Source: Oscillospiraceae bacterium
GTDB taxonomy: Bacteria; Bacillota; Clostridia; Oscillospirales; Acutalibacteraceae
Length of the DNA: 60,871 nucleotides
NCBI GenBank assembly: GCA_015066045.1
Contig: SVPD01000010.1
Coordinates: 1-60,871 of the forward strand
Reading direction: 5' to 3'
Below the pieces are notes generated by a model. That model made no database searches. It was not told the origin of the DNA and worked only from the letters and a program-made list of their open reading frames with translations. The position numbers and the translations under genes were made by a program. Positions 2,392-8,052 of the stretch are shown here, piece by piece. Every line of letters starts with the position of its first letter. Position 1 is the first letter of the stretch.

Positions 2392-3054
2392 ATGATTAAA
2401 ATTTCACCGTCTATTCTTTCCTGTGACTACTCTAAAATGGGAGAGGAATTTGAAAATATGAAGCGCTGCGGTGCGGACTGGCTCCACATCGATGTTATGG
2501 ACGGTCATTTCGTGCCCAATATTACCTTAGGCGCACCTCTGGTAAAATGTCTGAGAAAATGCTCCGACCTGCTTTTCGACTGTCATCTTATGATAAGCGA
2601 GCCTCTTAAATACATTCCCGATTTCATCAGCGCAGGTGCAGACCTTATCTGCTTTCACGTGGAGGCTGACTCCCCCATCGACGAAACCATCGACTACATC
2701 AGAGAAAAGGGCAAAATCGCCGCTCTGGCAGTAAAGCCCGGCACGGAAATCGAGGCAGTTTATCCCTATCTCGAAAAGCTCGGTATGGTGCTGGTTATGA
2801 CCGTAGAGCCCGGCTTCGGCGGTCAGAGCTTTATGGCAGATATGATGCCCAAAATAGTAAAGCTCCGTGAGGAGTGCAAAAGAAGAGGCATAGAAATGGA
2901 CATTCAGGTAGACGGAGGCATCTCCCCCGCCACCGTGGAAGCTGCCGCTGAGGCAGGCGCCAACGTACTCGTGGCAGGCTCCGCTATTTTCTGTGCCGAA
3001 AACCCCAAAGAGGCCATCACCACTCTGCGTGAAAAGGCCGCTAAATATTTCTGA
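2392..3054 (+). CDS. rpe: Ribulose-phosphate 3-epimerase
   Basis: Interconverts D-ribulose 5-phosphate and D-xylulose 5-phosphate in the pentose phosphate pathway. The 220-residue TIM barrel has the family landmarks: SPSILSCDYSKMGEE, the metal and catalytic segment HIDVMDGHFVPN, VEPGFGGQSF and the phosphate-binding VDGGI/VAGSAIF near the C terminus. It is the first gene of the plus-strand operon, with a strong promoter and ribosome site, and is followed after 18 bp by the Rnf-like genes. In many Firmicutes rpe sits near rsgA/prkC, so this neighbourhood is different. Confidence 0.96.
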   Translation: MIKISPSILSCDYSKMGEEFENMKRCGADWLHIDVMDGHFVPNITLGAPLVKCLRKCSDLLFDCHLMISEPLKYIPDFISAGADLICFHVEADSPIDETIDYIREKGKIAALAVKPGTEIEAVYPYLEKLGMVLVMTVEPGFGGQSFMADMMPKIVKLREECKRRGIEMDIQVDGGISPATVEAAAEAGANVLVAGSAIFCAENPKEAITTLREKAAKYF

Positions 3055-3072: not shown

Positions 3073-4089
3073 ATGCAGAAAAGCAAAGAAATCTTTTCTT
3101 TCAGAAATCCCGTTTTCAGATATAACGCCGATATTTTCGCCATATGCCTCGCCCTGAGCGTGACGGGTATTTATCACGGCGGCATTTATGCCCTGTGGCA
3201 GCTGCTCATTTGCTCGGCTACGGCAGTCCTGTGCGAAAGCATCGGCTTTAAGGCCGTGCTCAAAAAGAACACCGCAGCAGACCTGAGTGCCCTTACCACA
3301 GGTATGATAATAGCACTTCTGCTGCCTGTTTCCGCACCCTTTTATGTGGGTATAAGTGCCTCAGCCTTCGCCATACTCGTGGCCAAGCTTCCCTTCGGTG
3401 ACGTGCGAAACACTCCCTTTCTGCCTGCAGCGGCAGGCTTCTGCTTCGCAGCGATGATGTTTACTGAGGCAGTTTTCACCTACCCCGCCACAGGCAGCGA
3501 CTTCGCATTTTTCGGCACCGATTCCTTCGTAAAGGGAGAAAGCCTTTTCGATATGCTTTCCAAAGGAAACAGTCTTTCACTGAATGTTTTCGGCAGAGTC
3601 TCTCTGCTCTCGGGTGCCTATCCCGGTGCCATAGGCACCACAAGCATGCTCGTTTTGGCGGGCGGCTTCGGTTATATGTCTCTCAGACACCCGAAAAGGC
3701 TTTTCGCCTCTGCAGGCTATCTTCTGGCGGCGGCAGTTTTCGCCCTGCTTTTCCCGAGAGTAAACTCCGGCAGACTTTCCTCCCTTATCATCGAGCTCTC
3801 CGCCGGCGGTCTTGTTTTCGCTGCACTGCTGCTGATAACCGATCCGGTAACCTCTCCGAGAAAGCCTGACAGAGCATTTTTCTACGGCCTTACGGGAGGA
3901 GCGGTATGTATGCTGCTGAGATATTTTTCCAAAGCTCCCGACTCTGCCTGCTTCAGCATTCTCATCACAAACGCTCTGTGGCCCGCAATAACGGGAGAAA
4001 CCATCCTCGCTAAAAAAACGGCTGAAAAATACAGGAAGCCCTTGATGAAGAAAAAGGCTGCTCTCAAAGGAAAGGCGGGTACAGAATGA
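3073..4089 (+). CDS. RnfD/NqrB-like membrane subunit, lacking the flavin-attachment motif
   Basis: A 338-residue polytopic membrane protein of the RnfD/NqrB family. In canonical Rnf complexes RnfD is a core subunit of the ion-translocating ferredoxin:NAD oxidoreductase and carries a covalent FMN on a Thr in an S-x-A-T-P-type motif. Family features seen here are LSALTTGMIIALLLP, the NTPFLPAAAGF segment (NPFNPA in relatives), PGAIGTTS and LLLITDPVTSP. The flavinylation site is not recognisable: the aligned stretch reads FVKGESLFDML. The basic C-terminal tail may be cytosolic. The stop overlaps the next start (ATGA). No rnfC, rnfG or rnfB lies nearby, so the usual function is doubtful. Family assignment is firm; the role is not. 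Confidence 0.8.
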   Translation: MQKSKEIFSFRNPVFRYNADIFAICLALSVTGIYHGGIYALWQLLICSATAVLCESIGFKAVLKKNTAADLSALTTGMIIALLLPVSAPFYVGISASAFAILVAKLPFGDVRNTPFLPAAAGFCFAAMMFTEAVFTYPATGSDFAFFGTDSFVKGESLFDMLSKGNSLSLNVFGRVSLLSGAYPGAIGTTSMLVLAGGFGYMSLRHPKRLFASAGYLLAAAVFALLFPRVNSGRLSSLIIELSAGGLVFAALLLITDPVTSPRKPDRAFFYGLTGGAVCMLLRYFSKAPDSACFSILITNALWPAITGETILAKKTAEKYRKPLMKKKAALKGKAGTE

Positions 4090-4868
4090 AAAAGAAAAGC
4101 TCAAAGCCCGTGCTGAGCCTTTCCACGGCTCTTTTCAAGGGCAGCTTCGTCCATAATCCCGTGCTGACTCAGATAATCGGTATCTGTCCCATAGTAGGTG
4201 CCGCCACCACTGCAGCCAACGGACTCAGTCTGGCAGTAGGTGTCGTGGCCGTGCTCGTGCTGACTGAGGCCGTAACGAGTCTGCTGCTGAAAAAGGTGCC
4301 CAGATGGCTCCGAATGGCAGCATACACCCTGCTTTCCCTTTCGGTGGTGCTGACGTGTGACAGGTTTATTTTTTCTCTCACCCCCGACGGAGGTGCAGGC
4401 CTCGGCATTTATTTTTATCTGCTGTGCGTAAATGCTCTGGCAGTTATCCGATGCGAAAAATTCGCCTGTAAAACCACAGTGCTCAACGCCGTCACCGACG
4501 GTGTGGCCGCAGGCATAGGCTACGGTGCAGTGGCACTCATAGTAGGTGCCGTCAGAGAGCTGATAACCTACGGCACTCTTTTTTCCGCCGCCGATGCCGT
4601 CCCCCGTTTTCCTCAGGGTGCTCTGCCCTTTGCGGCGCTGGTAATAGCAGGCTTTTTAGCCGCAGGGCACAAATGGCTTCTCATTAAGTTTTATCCCGAT
4701 GATATACGTGACACCTTCTCAATGAATGCCGTTTACGAAAAGCCCGTGAAAAAGGATCCGGGACTTTTTGCGGATAAACGCAAGCCCAAGGTGCTGCGTG
4801 ACTACGATGAAAAAATCCGTCCGAGACATTCGGCTGAGGAAAAAGAGAAGGGCGGTGAGGCGAAATGA
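4086..4868 (+). CDS. RnfE/NqrD-like membrane subunit
   Basis: A 260-residue membrane protein of the RnfA/RnfE family. RnfE and RnfA pair in the membrane and in characterised complexes hold an iron-sulfur centre between four conserved cysteines. Here the first site is kept (NPVLTQIIGICPIVG). The second, normally VNC, reads VNALAVIRCEKFAC, so the expected Cys is Ala, with two other cysteines a few residues on. About six hydrophobic helices are followed by an unusual charged C-terminal tail of about 60 residues rich in Lys, Glu and Arg. It overlaps the RnfD-like and RnfA-like genes by 4 bp at either end, which implies coupled translation. Confidence 0.8.
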   Translation: MKKKSSKPVLSLSTALFKGSFVHNPVLTQIIGICPIVGAATTAANGLSLAVGVVAVLVLTEAVTSLLLKKVPRWLRMAAYTLLSLSVVLTCDRFIFSLTPDGGAGLGIYFYLLCVNALAVIRCEKFACKTTVLNAVTDGVAAGIGYGAVALIVGAVRELITYGTLFSAADAVPRFPQGALPFAALVIAGFLAAGHKWLLIKFYPDDIRDTFSMNAVYEKPVKKDPGLFADKRKPKVLRDYDEKIRPRHSAEEKEKGGEAK

Positions 4869-5458
4869 CACAGTTTATCTCTATGCTCACCGCTGCCCTT
4901 TATGCTATGCTGGTACAGAATATGATTTTCAGCACAGGCTACGGTATGAGCGAAAGCATCAGAATGGCCAAGCGTCCGAAGCATTTGCTTATGTATGCAG
5001 GCACGGTGACCTTCTTTTCCCTCGCTCTGTCACTGATTTGCTTTTTCCTTAACAGGATACCCTTCGTTTTCGCTCTGGAGACGAAATACCGCATCGCACT
5101 TTACACCGCCGTGCTCACGGTGCTTTATCTGCTGGCAGCTCTTTTCTGCCTGACAGTGCTTAAGGCTGACAAAAAATTTATGAATTCACTGGGTATGTGC
5201 GCTCTGAACACTCTGATCATCGCTCTGCCTGTGGTAGATTTCAAAGCAGGCTACACTTTAGCCGAAACCGTAGGCACGGGCATCGGTGCAGGTTTTGCCT
5301 TTACGCTCTCCATGCTCCTCATAAACACGGGTATGAAGCATATAAAGGGTAACCGCTACATCCCCGAGGTGTTCAGAGGTACCCCCGCACTCTTTATTTA
5401 CATTTCGCTGATAGCTCTGGCTCTGAGCTGCATCTCAGGTCAATCTCTTTTCGTATAA
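4865..5458 (+). CDS. RnfA/NqrE-like membrane subunit without the cluster cysteines
   Basis: A 197-residue protein with about six transmembrane helices, similar in length and layout to RnfA. Canonical RnfA has N-x-x-L-T-Q-x-x-G-x-C-P in helix 1 and T-T-N-C in helix 4. The corresponding stretches here read VQNMIFSTGYG and LGMCALNTLIIALP, so both expected ligand cysteines appear to be missing. Assignment rests on position after an RnfE-like gene, length, and segments such as ALYAMLVQNMIFS and AETVGTGIGAGFAFTLSMLLI. Translation is coupled to the previous gene (ATGA). With its two neighbours it forms an Rnf-like membrane core of unknown activity. Confidence 0.7.
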   Translation: MTQFISMLTAALYAMLVQNMIFSTGYGMSESIRMAKRPKHLLMYAGTVTFFSLALSLICFFLNRIPFVFALETKYRIALYTAVLTVLYLLAALFCLTVLKADKKFMNSLGMCALNTLIIALPVVDFKAGYTLAETVGTGIGAGFAFTLSMLLINTGMKHIKGNRYIPEVFRGTPALFIYISLIALALSCISGQSLFV

Positions 5459-5468
5459 GGAAGATATT

Positions 5469-6692
5469 ATGTCTAAGAAAAAAACAGATAAGAAAAAATC
5501 ACCCTACCCCGAAAACGGCAGGGTAAGAATAAGACACAGCTACTACACCTTCGCCCGTGAGTTTCCGTCTAAGATTTTACCCTTGCAGGGCAAAAGAAGA
5601 AAGTACAGAAAAAACCGCATAGTCAGAAACATTCTGCTCTGTCTTCTTTTCGTCTTCGTAACGCTCTTTTCCTATTTCACGGTAAATCTGATGCTGGACA
5701 TTTCCTACACGGACACTGCTTCTCCCGACTCCTCGGCAGAGGTCACTGCTCCGCAGACGGGGGAAGAGCCTCTTTTGCCCTTCGGCGGTGAGAGTGTCAG
5801 GGCTCTGTATATGCCTGCGGAAAAATTAGGCGACAGAGAATATATCAGAAATTTCATAAAGCAGATAAAGAGAAAAAACTGCAGCAGCGTGCTCATCGAC
5901 TTCAAAAGCAGTGAGGGCAGCCTTTCCTACACCTCTCTGAACGAAACGGCCATTAAGGCAAGAGCCTCTCTTTTCGACAACAACACCGTCAGACAGGCTC
6001 TCGACCTTTTCGAAAGCGAGAAAATCAGGGTAATAGCCCGTGTTTTCTGCTTTGCGGACCATTCGGCAGCCACGGCTGAGCCGTCTATGGCAGTAAAATA
6101 TATGAATACTGACGTAAACTGGATAGATTCGGGAGCTGAAAGCGGCGGAAAAAGCCGTCTCAATCCCCTTTCGAAAGCCGCCAAGACCTATCTTCTCAGC
6201 ATTATCGAGGAGATACTGCAGTTTAAAATAGACGGTATTTTACTCGAGGAGGTATCCTTCCCCTACGGTGAATATGTTTCCGGTGCCACCTATCCCGGTG
6301 AAAAGAAGGGCACCGACAGAAACGGGGTGCTGAAGGACTTTATCGCAGACGTAAAGGAAAGCCTTCCCGAGGACTGTCTGCTGCTTCTGGGACACACGGC
6401 GAAGGATGCTCTCGGAGAAAACCGCACCCTTTATTCCGGCTCTTTGCTTAAAAGTGCCGCTGACGGCTTTGCCGTAAACACGCTGACAAGAGATGAGGGC
6501 ATCATCATAGATAAAAAAACAGACTATGCCTCACTTTTCTCTATGCTCTCAGACATTAAAAATAATCTTGGCGACAAGAGAGCCGTCTACACCGTGGATA
6601 TCTCCGAATATTCCGCCTCTCTGATAAGAAAAATGCAGAGAGCCGGCTACACGGACTTCATCATTTACAGCCCCGAAGGCATTTATAACTGA
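5469..6692 (+). CDS. Membrane-anchored putative glycoside hydrolase barrel (DUF4015-type)
   Basis: A 407-residue protein with a basic cytosolic N terminus (about 1-50), a single transmembrane helix (about 52-76) and a short low-complexity linker. The extracytoplasmic domain from about residue 105 resembles the putative glycosyl hydrolase family DUF4015, a TIM-barrel family related to GH13-like folds. Supporting segments are VRALYMPAEKLGDREYI, CSSVLIDFKSSEG, RVIARVFCFADH, IDGILLEEVSFPY and FIIYSPEGIYN, which follow the beta-strand spacing of such barrels. It starts 10 bp after the RnfA-like gene and ends 18 bp before era. Substrate is unknown; a role at the cell wall or an envelope glycan is inference. 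Confidence 0.7.
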   Translation: MSKKKTDKKKSPYPENGRVRIRHSYYTFAREFPSKILPLQGKRRKYRKNRIVRNILLCLLFVFVTLFSYFTVNLMLDISYTDTASPDSSAEVTAPQTGEEPLLPFGGESVRALYMPAEKLGDREYIRNFIKQIKRKNCSSVLIDFKSSEGSLSYTSLNETAIKARASLFDNNTVRQALDLFESEKIRVIARVFCFADHSAATAEPSMAVKYMNTDVNWIDSGAESGGKSRLNPLSKAAKTYLLSIIEEILQFKIDGILLEEVSFPYGEYVSGATYPGEKKGTDRNGVLKDFIADVKESLPEDCLLLLGHTAKDALGENRTLYSGSLLKSAADGFAVNTLTRDEGIIIDKKTDYASLFSMLSDIKNNLGDKRAVYTVDISEYSASLIRKMQRAGYTDFIIYSPEGIYN

Positions 6693-7701: not shown

Positions 7702-8052
7702 ATGAAGCAAAACAACGTAATTGTTGATAAGAGTAAGAAATTCGCATTAAGAATCATCAAACTTTACAAATATCTCATAACGGAGAAAAAAGAGTATGTG
7801 CTTTCCAAGCAGATTCTTCGTAGCGGTACAAGTGTAGGCGCAAATATACGTGAAGCCGTCAGAGGCTATAGTGCGGCAGATTTTTATTTTAAGATGGGGC
7901 TTTCTCTTAAAGAGACTGAAGAAACGCTCTACTGGCTCGAGCTTTTACACGAAAGCGATTACATAGAGACAAAGCACTTCGAAAGCATCTACGCTGATGG
8001 TCGTGAAATAATCAGAATACTAACTTCAATTACCAAAAATCAAAGCCAATAA
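7702..8052 (+). CDS. Four-helix-bundle protein of the S23/IVP family
   Basis: A 116-residue, all-helical protein of the family named after proteins encoded in 23S rRNA intervening sequences (S23/IVP; related to the Avd accessory protein of diversity-generating retroelements). Characteristic segments are KKFALRIIKLYKYL, LSKQILRSGTSVGANIREA, YFKMGLSLKETEETLYWLELL and an EIIRILTSI C terminus. A good GGGAGA site precedes the ATG. It is not inside an rRNA gene and no reverse transcriptase is nearby. Instead it sits between era and yqzL, framed by inverted repeats, and it is more A/T-rich than its neighbours. Its function is unknown; the family is thought to bind nucleic acid or act as an adaptor. 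Confidence 0.88.
   Translation: MKQNNVIVDKSKKFALRIIKLYKYLITEKKEYVLSKQILRSGTSVGANIREAVRGYSAADFYFKMGLSLKETEETLYWLELLHESDYIETKHFESIYADGREIIRILTSITKNQSQ

Follow-up and report, generated by a model that had tools for sequence, protein, structure and literature searches.

What does the membrane core of an Rnf complex (RnfABCDGE, ferredoxin:NAD+ oxidoreductase) do when the parts that carry its electrons are missing? The question is raised by a locus in a 60,871-nucleotide contig from an Oscillospiraceae bacterium, SVPD01000010.1 (this whole stretch of DNA is called the window here), in which three genes encode proteins like RnfD, RnfE and RnfA. We name these proteins D', E' and A', and the RnfC-like protein that accompanies them at some related loci is named C'. 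An original prediction, made from the letters of the window, held that the complex had lost classical electron transfer and may have become a transporter or a redox path with other cofactors. Comparison of 83 loci with D' indicates that they very probably encode an Rnf-derived complex unable to run the known Rnf electron path. A kept membrane core without electron carriers suggests a second job, and redox-independent translocation of ions or solutes is a serious candidate for it, which we put forward with caution.

Cofactor sites of D', E' and A'

The three genes lie in canonical D-E-A order with a 4-base overlap at each junction, D'/E' and E'/A'. Their coordinates and overlaps are as originally claimed. 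D' matches NQR2_RnfD_RnfE (1.3e-51), its sole match above cut-off, and E' and A' match Rnf-Nqr (2.3e-33 and 6.1e-14). In a PDB search the three proteins matched the RnfD, RnfE and RnfA chains of solved structures, and D' had no match to a urea/ammonium transporter at E 0.001. All three missed the NCBIfam cut-offs for rnfD, rnfE and rnfA by a wide margin, and the NCBIfam cut-offs for NqrB, NqrD and NqrE were not reached either. The genes and the positions that matter for cofactor binding are as follows (aa, amino acids; FMN, flavin mononucleotide).

3073..4089, + strand: D', RnfD/NqrB-like membrane protein, 338 aa; lacks the FMN motif and has P228-R229 and E241, residues specific to the family
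3541..3543, + strand: Ser157 codon of D', in the column of FMN-linked Thr153 (C. tetanomorphum numbering)
3841..3843, + strand: Asp257 codon of D', equivalent to RnfD Asp248, a riboflavin and proposed Na+ site
4086..4868, + strand: E', RnfE/NqrD-like membrane protein, 260 aa
4185..4187, + strand: Cys34 codon of E', the single retained [2Fe-2S] ligand position
4434..4436, + strand: Ala117 codon of E', second [2Fe-2S] ligand position, Cys in canonical RnfE
4865..5458, + strand: A', RnfA/NqrE-like membrane protein, 197 aa
4949..4951, + strand: Ser29 codon of A', first [2Fe-2S] ligand position, Cys in canonical RnfA
5207..5212, + strand: Asn115 and Thr116 codons of A'; Thr116 is at the second [2Fe-2S] position, Cys in canonical RnfA

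Solved Rnf sequences and 11 canonical loci served as the reference for ligand positions. All four cysteines of the [2Fe-2S] cluster were present in 11/11 canonical loci. In the D' family the first Cys of E' was found in 43/81 proteins and the second in none (0/81; Ser 42, Thr 12, Ala 12), while the first Cys of A' was never seen (0/79; Ser 64) and the second occurred in 12/79 (Thr 38). Counted per locus for the 79 loci with both E' and A', none of the four was kept in 28 loci, one in 49 and two in 2, and never three or four. The window retains one, Cys34 of E'. The original reading of these sites was thus accurate: the G-x-C-P Cys of the RnfE-like protein is kept and its second site is Ala, and the RnfA-like protein lacks both cysteines, with Ser29 and Thr116 in their columns. 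Conserved ligands at shifted positions had been named as a finding that would speak against the loss. No such cluster ligand was found in E' or A', where only the column of E' Cys34 holds Cys in at least 40% of relatives.

The FMN site of D' has fared likewise. The S-x-A-T-P (S/T-x-A-T) context is gone around Ser157, in agreement with the motif loss read from the window, and R130 and E185, which are described as facing FMN in RnfD (PMC9588780), were kept in 0/83 proteins. The seven redox columns (FMN and cluster) were retained less than 131 other canonical-invariant columns (p = 0.0013), although the first E' Cys (0.53) is not among the lowest. An alternative column set, made of the E/A ligands and the RnfB contacts, gave p = 0.03 when all loci were included and 0.06 in the window's clade.

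Distribution and selection

Loci were collected from surveys with D' and A' (89 stretches), four named loci of metagenome-assembled genomes (MAGs) and the window. One locus (L060) was left out as a copy of L008 and ten stretches proved canonical, and 83 distinct D' loci resulted. E' was found at 81 and A' at 79 of them; two loci (L075 and L115) stop at a contig end, and E' of L125 is short (134 aa). Neither rnfB nor rnfG was found in any of the 83 stretches. A survey of genomes for D-E-A trios without these genes had been proposed with the original prediction, and it revealed a family in which the ligand losses are shared. The claim that classical electron transfer is lost is well supported by it: the ligand set is never complete, both FMN-facing residues are gone throughout, and the two partner genes are missing from every stretch.

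The D' loci that carry a group code belong to families f1, f14, f22 and f24, all of one Clostridia order; the four MAG loci carry no group code. An A' profile at E 1e-38 found 19/197 genomes of the order sample, in the same four families, at a cut-off that misses at least one D' genome (G158, locus L044). In the class sample the profile exceeded 145 bits inside the order only, and the best score outside was 126.7 bits, which is the canonical level. In the phylum sample, searched at E 1e-36, the window was the sole pass (1/299), with none in the 298 others. In a tree D' formed one side of a branch with a Shimodaira-Hasegawa-like approximate likelihood ratio test (SH-aLRT) value of 100, against 29 canonical-type RnfD. 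No D-E-A set without B and G was described in the open literature searched (subscription papers and bioRxiv lay outside this scope). Two reports of 'rnfCDEA' were considered as precedents and set aside; in the passages available from them the clusters are really rnfCDEAB.

The ratio of nonsynonymous to synonymous substitution rates (dN/dS) between the window and three relatives was 0.075-0.098 for D', 0.096-0.14 for E' and 0.049-0.074 for A'. Three residues are specific to D' and conserved in it (Pro228 in 75/83, Arg229 in 73/83, Glu241 in 76/83), and unconserved in the 11 canonical RnfD. Asn115 of A' was found in 78/79. Purifying selection together with conservation across 83 loci excludes chance.

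Independence from complete Rnf

The window genome assembly (2.24 Mb, 97.9% complete) contains four Rnf-Nqr genes, two at the locus and two on contig C60. As read from its frames, with profile support for C, D, G, B and ApbE, C60 carries a complete RnfC-D-G-E-A-B with an ApbE gene nearby. The C60 RnfC was the best match to the C' profile in this genome, four weaker matches being counted besides it. Partner subunits are therefore present in the cell, but they belong to the C60 complex, which has its own D, E and A. The search for missing partners of D'E'A' in the window genome yielded only this set, itself a complete Rnf. The absence of rnfB, rnfC and rnfG that had been noted thus stands for the window locus and fails for the genome.

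Other genomes allow a stricter comparison. No FMN_bind match was found in 8/73 genomes with the locus. One of these (G324, 56% complete) was set aside, and seven were kept (G266, G371, G186, G279, G378, G354 and G341; completeness 91-99%). Completeness reaches 94% or more in five of them, of which one is in two contigs. Each of the seven has exactly two Rnf-Nqr genes, which are E' and A' themselves. A search with the RnfB model, judged on its RnfB-specific part, gave no convincing RnfB in the seven genomes: six match it solely over its ferredoxin-like region (positions 92-180), G266 exceeds the summed cut-off owing to tandem ferredoxin repeats, and in G341 two frames, of 445 and 579 aa, weakly match positions 33-91 (24 bits). 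No RnfC was found with the C' profile in G266 and G371, where matches were of ferredoxin type only. Since G227, the sister of G341, has an FMN_bind domain, G341 (91% complete) may just be incomplete. In the seven genomes the locus does not need a normal Rnf.

A second reduction in family f6

DUF4015, a protein with a putative glycosyl hydrolase domain whose gene follows A' in the window, was used as a lead, and 18 canonical-type loci were picked for DUF4015 nearby on the contig. Fourteen of them are complete CDGEAB-DUF4015 clusters. The other four (L134, L137, L145 and L146), of one genus in family f6, are arranged C-D-E-A-DUF4015; no rnfG or rnfB was found within these stretches, the rest of the genomes not being searched for RnfB or RnfG. 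Their genomes gave one RnfD match each. All four cluster cysteines are replaced, in E by Phe and Gly and in A by Arg and Val. In D, Asn stands at the FMN Thr and Lys at R130, with E185, N124 and D248 kept. The reduced D nests beside the complete Rnf of G061, from the same genus (SH-aLRT 99). Values of dN/dS were 0.06-0.12 for D, 0.11-0.14 for A and 0.09-0.15 for C, and 0.32-0.44 for the E gene, which has an N-terminal extension of about 300 aa. As judged from these alignments and the tree, the f6 arrangement is a second reduction, independent of the D' family; its proteins stand outside the counts of 83, 81 and 79 used above.

The C' subunit and the E' tail

A C' gene is present at 39 of the 83 D' loci. 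The FMN motif GxGGxxFP occurred in 0/39 C' proteins, against 21/24 canonical RnfC, where one of the three without it (L050) is a cut gene. The Complex1_51K cut-off was passed by one of five C' scanned (L045). No C' was found at the window locus, and the window's clade is without C'. L080 and L119 were not counted as losses, C' being on another contig of their genomes. On contig C85 of G320 the C' match lies inside an 825-aa open frame, possibly a fusion.

The C'-less clade is marked by an extended C-terminus of E', of which the window has a shorter example.

4665..4865, + strand: 67-aa C-terminal tail of E', of the kind that characterises the C'-less clade

The median tail is 161.5 aa in this clade, with more than 60 aa in 29/30, compared with medians of 17 in canonical and 21 in C'-bearing loci. 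The 67-aa tail of the window is conserved in five relatives. At L062 (6176-8269) E' has a tail of 503 aa. A S-[LIM]-D-D-I-I-like motif, a pattern chosen post hoc, was seen in 8/30 tails versus a mean of 0.3 in shuffles.

Neighbouring genes

The cluster order in the window is rpe-D'-E'-A'-DUF4015, and the flanking genes are as follows.

2392..3054, + strand: rpe, ribulose-phosphate 3-epimerase, 18 bases upstream of D'
5469..6692, + strand: DUF4015 protein, putative glycosyl hydrolase domain, 10 bases downstream of A'

The rpe gene lies upstream in 74/83 D' loci. Among the other nine, most are truncated close to a contig end, and L040 and L069 have room yet no rpe. In family f4 (L130, L131 and L144) a complete rnfCDGEAB-DUF4015 cluster stands downstream of rpe, at the site that D' occupies elsewhere; the D' locus may accordingly represent the original position of rnf and not a new copy. 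DUF4015 is directly 3' of A' in 29/64 loci with downstream room and in 7/7 loci added later. It is also found 3' of canonical rnfB, often ends rnf clusters in this order (the window, L049, L128, L129-L146) and occurs in 57/117 sampled genomes. In the literature covered, one paper mentions the domain, in the legend of a supporting figure.

An opposite-strand frame fills the gap between rpe and C' or D' in 46 loci with a gap of at least 300 bases. Pfam MecA was matched by 4/4 scanned frames of this kind (for example L062 4470-5039; L045, L051 and L066 are among such loci), and it is this frame, instead of the thiN considered as a candidate, that the 600-700 base gap holds. The MecA-like gene is absent from the window, whose rpe and D' are separated by 18 bases. 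Neither DUF4015 nor the MecA-like gene points to a substrate. At L040 a gene for a CAP-domain protein (5418-6191) lies between D' and E'. Further downstream in the window, a 116-aa frame between era and recO (7702-8052) resembles the four-helix protein of 23S rRNA intervening sequences.

A model for the reduced complex

According to PMC11889175, RnfA and RnfE of A. woodii work as an alternating-access pair and carry Na+ past the [2Fe-2S] cluster, along a path with the RnfE R67-E115 ion pair, L103, V106 and N107 of RnfE, and N112 of RnfA. The RnfE side of this path is kept in the window's clade (R67 in 30/30, L103 in 26/30, V106 in 21/30, N107 in 25/30, E115 in 28/30), as is N112 of A' (29/29). 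It is plausible that the core still rocks and lets something through, but its site would have been rebuilt.

The following course of events would account for these loci. The ancestor was probably an rnfCDGEAB-DUF4015 cluster beside rpe. From it rnfG and rnfB would have been lost together with the FMN ligands of D and the [2Fe-2S] ligands of A and E. The RnfC-like subunit may have lost its FMN/NADH site and retained its two [4Fe-4S] motifs; in the window's clade it would have been lost too, and E' would have gained its C-terminal tail, which may take the regulatory place of C'. E' and A' would act as a pseudo-symmetric alternating-access pair, with D' as a channel-like companion. Movement may be driven by a gradient, or gated by the E' tail in the window and by C' in the other half of the family. 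As a first guess, the substrate could be a small cation such as Na+. On the outside, the core may have a partner in DUF4015, a protein resembling envelope enzymes. On this proposal an Rnf would have turned at least twice in one gut Clostridia order into a cofactor-free translocator, with RnfB, RnfG and the membrane redox ligand sets lost and D-E-A kept by selection. We regard this conversion as a fair possibility, and hold it a little more loosely than the translocator function itself.

Evidence against the model and alternative explanations

Several observations weigh against redox-independent translocation. In the window's clade the RnfA side has kept little or nothing of E88, T110, T111, P107, L108, Q85, Y105 and T73. 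The 13 conserved Na+-path columns are not kept above others (median 0.07 vs 0.24, p = 0.51), and the C'-bearing loci mostly lack E115 (Glu in 5%), which would suit a redox role. Enrichment of the Na+ path, not significant as a set, was dropped as evidence; of the transporter first suggested, the RnfE-side entry residues stand and the greater part of the RnfA side does not. L116 and L119 have D', with neither E' nor A' found in the stretch. The structure model, built from a five-row alignment, reached a predicted local distance difference test score (pLDDT) of 38.5 only and gives no usable picture of a pore or pocket.

Other points concern cofactors. FMN_bind domains are encoded in 65/73 and ApbE in 70/73 genomes with the locus. 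ApbE also occurs in five of the seven genomes without an FMN_bind substrate (G186, G279, G266, G371 and G341), and all seven have Ser or Thr at the flavin position of D', so D' could be flavinylated. Over the family the FMN Thr column holds Ser in 64 and Thr in 9 proteins, a hydroxyl residue thus in 73/83. With Thr there in the window's three nearest relatives, to say that the motif is absent is right, and to say that an acceptor residue is absent is too strong. Four columns of D' (129, 198, 220 and 293 in window numbering) recurrently hold Cys, in 53, 39, 38 and 50 of 83 rows. All four occur together in 11/83 rows, the window having only Cys293; D' may thus hold a new Cys-based site at some loci. 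Finally, C' has both [4Fe-4S] motifs (CxxCxxCxxxC) in 39/39.

These cofactor points speak for the alternative that survives best, in which electrons would still be carried by other cofactors, riboflavin or a Ser/Thr-linked flavin in D'. They could be fed from the [4Fe-4S] centres of C' or, at loci without C', from a separate ferredoxin, and would perhaps serve a short path or a gating redox sensor. The residues on the riboflavin side are partly kept (N124 in 42/83; the Asp248 column with Asp in 63/83 and Glu in 8/83), and the f6 reduction keeps N124, D248 and E185. A two-subunit Nqr/Rnf-like system without the covalent Thr is held to be redox-active (PMC10979944), and orphan ApbE genes have been described (PMC8238504), as far as the available parts of both papers go. 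N124 was Asn in 30/38 C'-bearing and 10/41 C'-less rows (four rows left out), but this link comes from 2-3 independent pairs and was dropped as proof. Against such an electron path, the window's clade has no C' and keeps N124 in 1/30 only, E' and A' have no conserved cluster ligand set, the four D' cysteines rarely coincide, and the context of the flavin position is gone. No outer electron acceptor was recognised by eye among the 26 commonest neighbour groups, which were not family-scanned. We consider this alternative less likely than translocation but a real possibility, above all for the C'-bearing half of the family.

A less probable explanation is that D'E'A' transports nothing and serves as the membrane anchor or scaffold of an envelope process in which DUF4015 takes part. 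It would fit the position of DUF4015 next to both A' and canonical rnfB, and the added segments of E, C-terminal in the window's clade and N-terminal in f6. However, 35/64 loci have no DUF4015 at that place, the adjacency may be inherited from canonical rnf, and the translocation-site residues of E' are conserved, and a mere anchor therefore seems rather improbable.

It is very improbable that D'E'A' serves as an alternative core and borrows RnfB, RnfG and RnfC from a complete Rnf of the same genome. The C60 cluster and the frequent FMN_bind domains would make it feasible, but the seven genomes above have no other Rnf-Nqr gene, FMN_bind match or convincing RnfB, and the ligands that the partner subunits would feed are gone.

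That the genes are decaying leftovers of a duplicated rnf operon, as missing partners and ligands, the short E' of L125 and the lone D' of L116 and L119 might suggest, is scarcely credible in view of dN/dS values of 0.049-0.14, the near-invariant residues of A' and D' and full-length genes across many genera.

Comparison with known systems

Redox-independent translocation by the D'E'A' core, if true, would open the moving parts of a redox pump to study without its redox parts, and a core freed twice from the known redox centres would show which residues are kept for a non-electron role. The locus resembles Rnf in the homology of D, E and A, which spans most of each protein, in the gene order D-(G)-E-A, and in the frequent DUF4015 neighbour in this order of Clostridia. 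Unlike Rnf, it lacks B, G, the FMN motif of D and a [2Fe-2S] ligand set, and its C' is without the FMN motif or absent altogether. Because four tested defining features of Rnf fail, the locus should not be filed as an Rnf complex. The annotation of RnfD, RnfE and RnfA as 'electron transport complex' may mislead in many Clostridia, with consequences for the metabolic modelling of gut microbes.

The coupling of electrons and ions in Rnf and NQR is itself debated, including whether the ion route is via RnfD or RnfA/E (PMC12174285, PMC11889175), and RnfD/NqrB is said to share fold and evolution with urea/ammonium transporters (PMC12174285, PMC9588780). Na+-NQR is argued to have originated by rnf duplication, loss of rnfB and cofactor decay in RnfC (PMC4014512). 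In NQR, however, NqrC/RnfG, the FMNs and the membrane cluster were retained and NqrF was added, whereas the reduced locus lost those ligands; no RnfG/NqrC-type gene was found in the D' stretches, and NqrF was not searched for. In C' the FMN motif was lost and the Fe-S motifs were kept, the reverse of NqrA.

The two-subunit Nqr/Rnf-like flavinylation systems, as they appear in the available parts of PMC8238504 and PMC10979944, are similar in being a partial set with a D-like subunit that lacks the flavinylated Thr. In contrast to the D' locus, which has E and A and no G, they have retained an RnfG-like FMN protein together with a fused NAD-binding domain; the window D', at 338 aa with the RnfD domain alone, has no such fusion.

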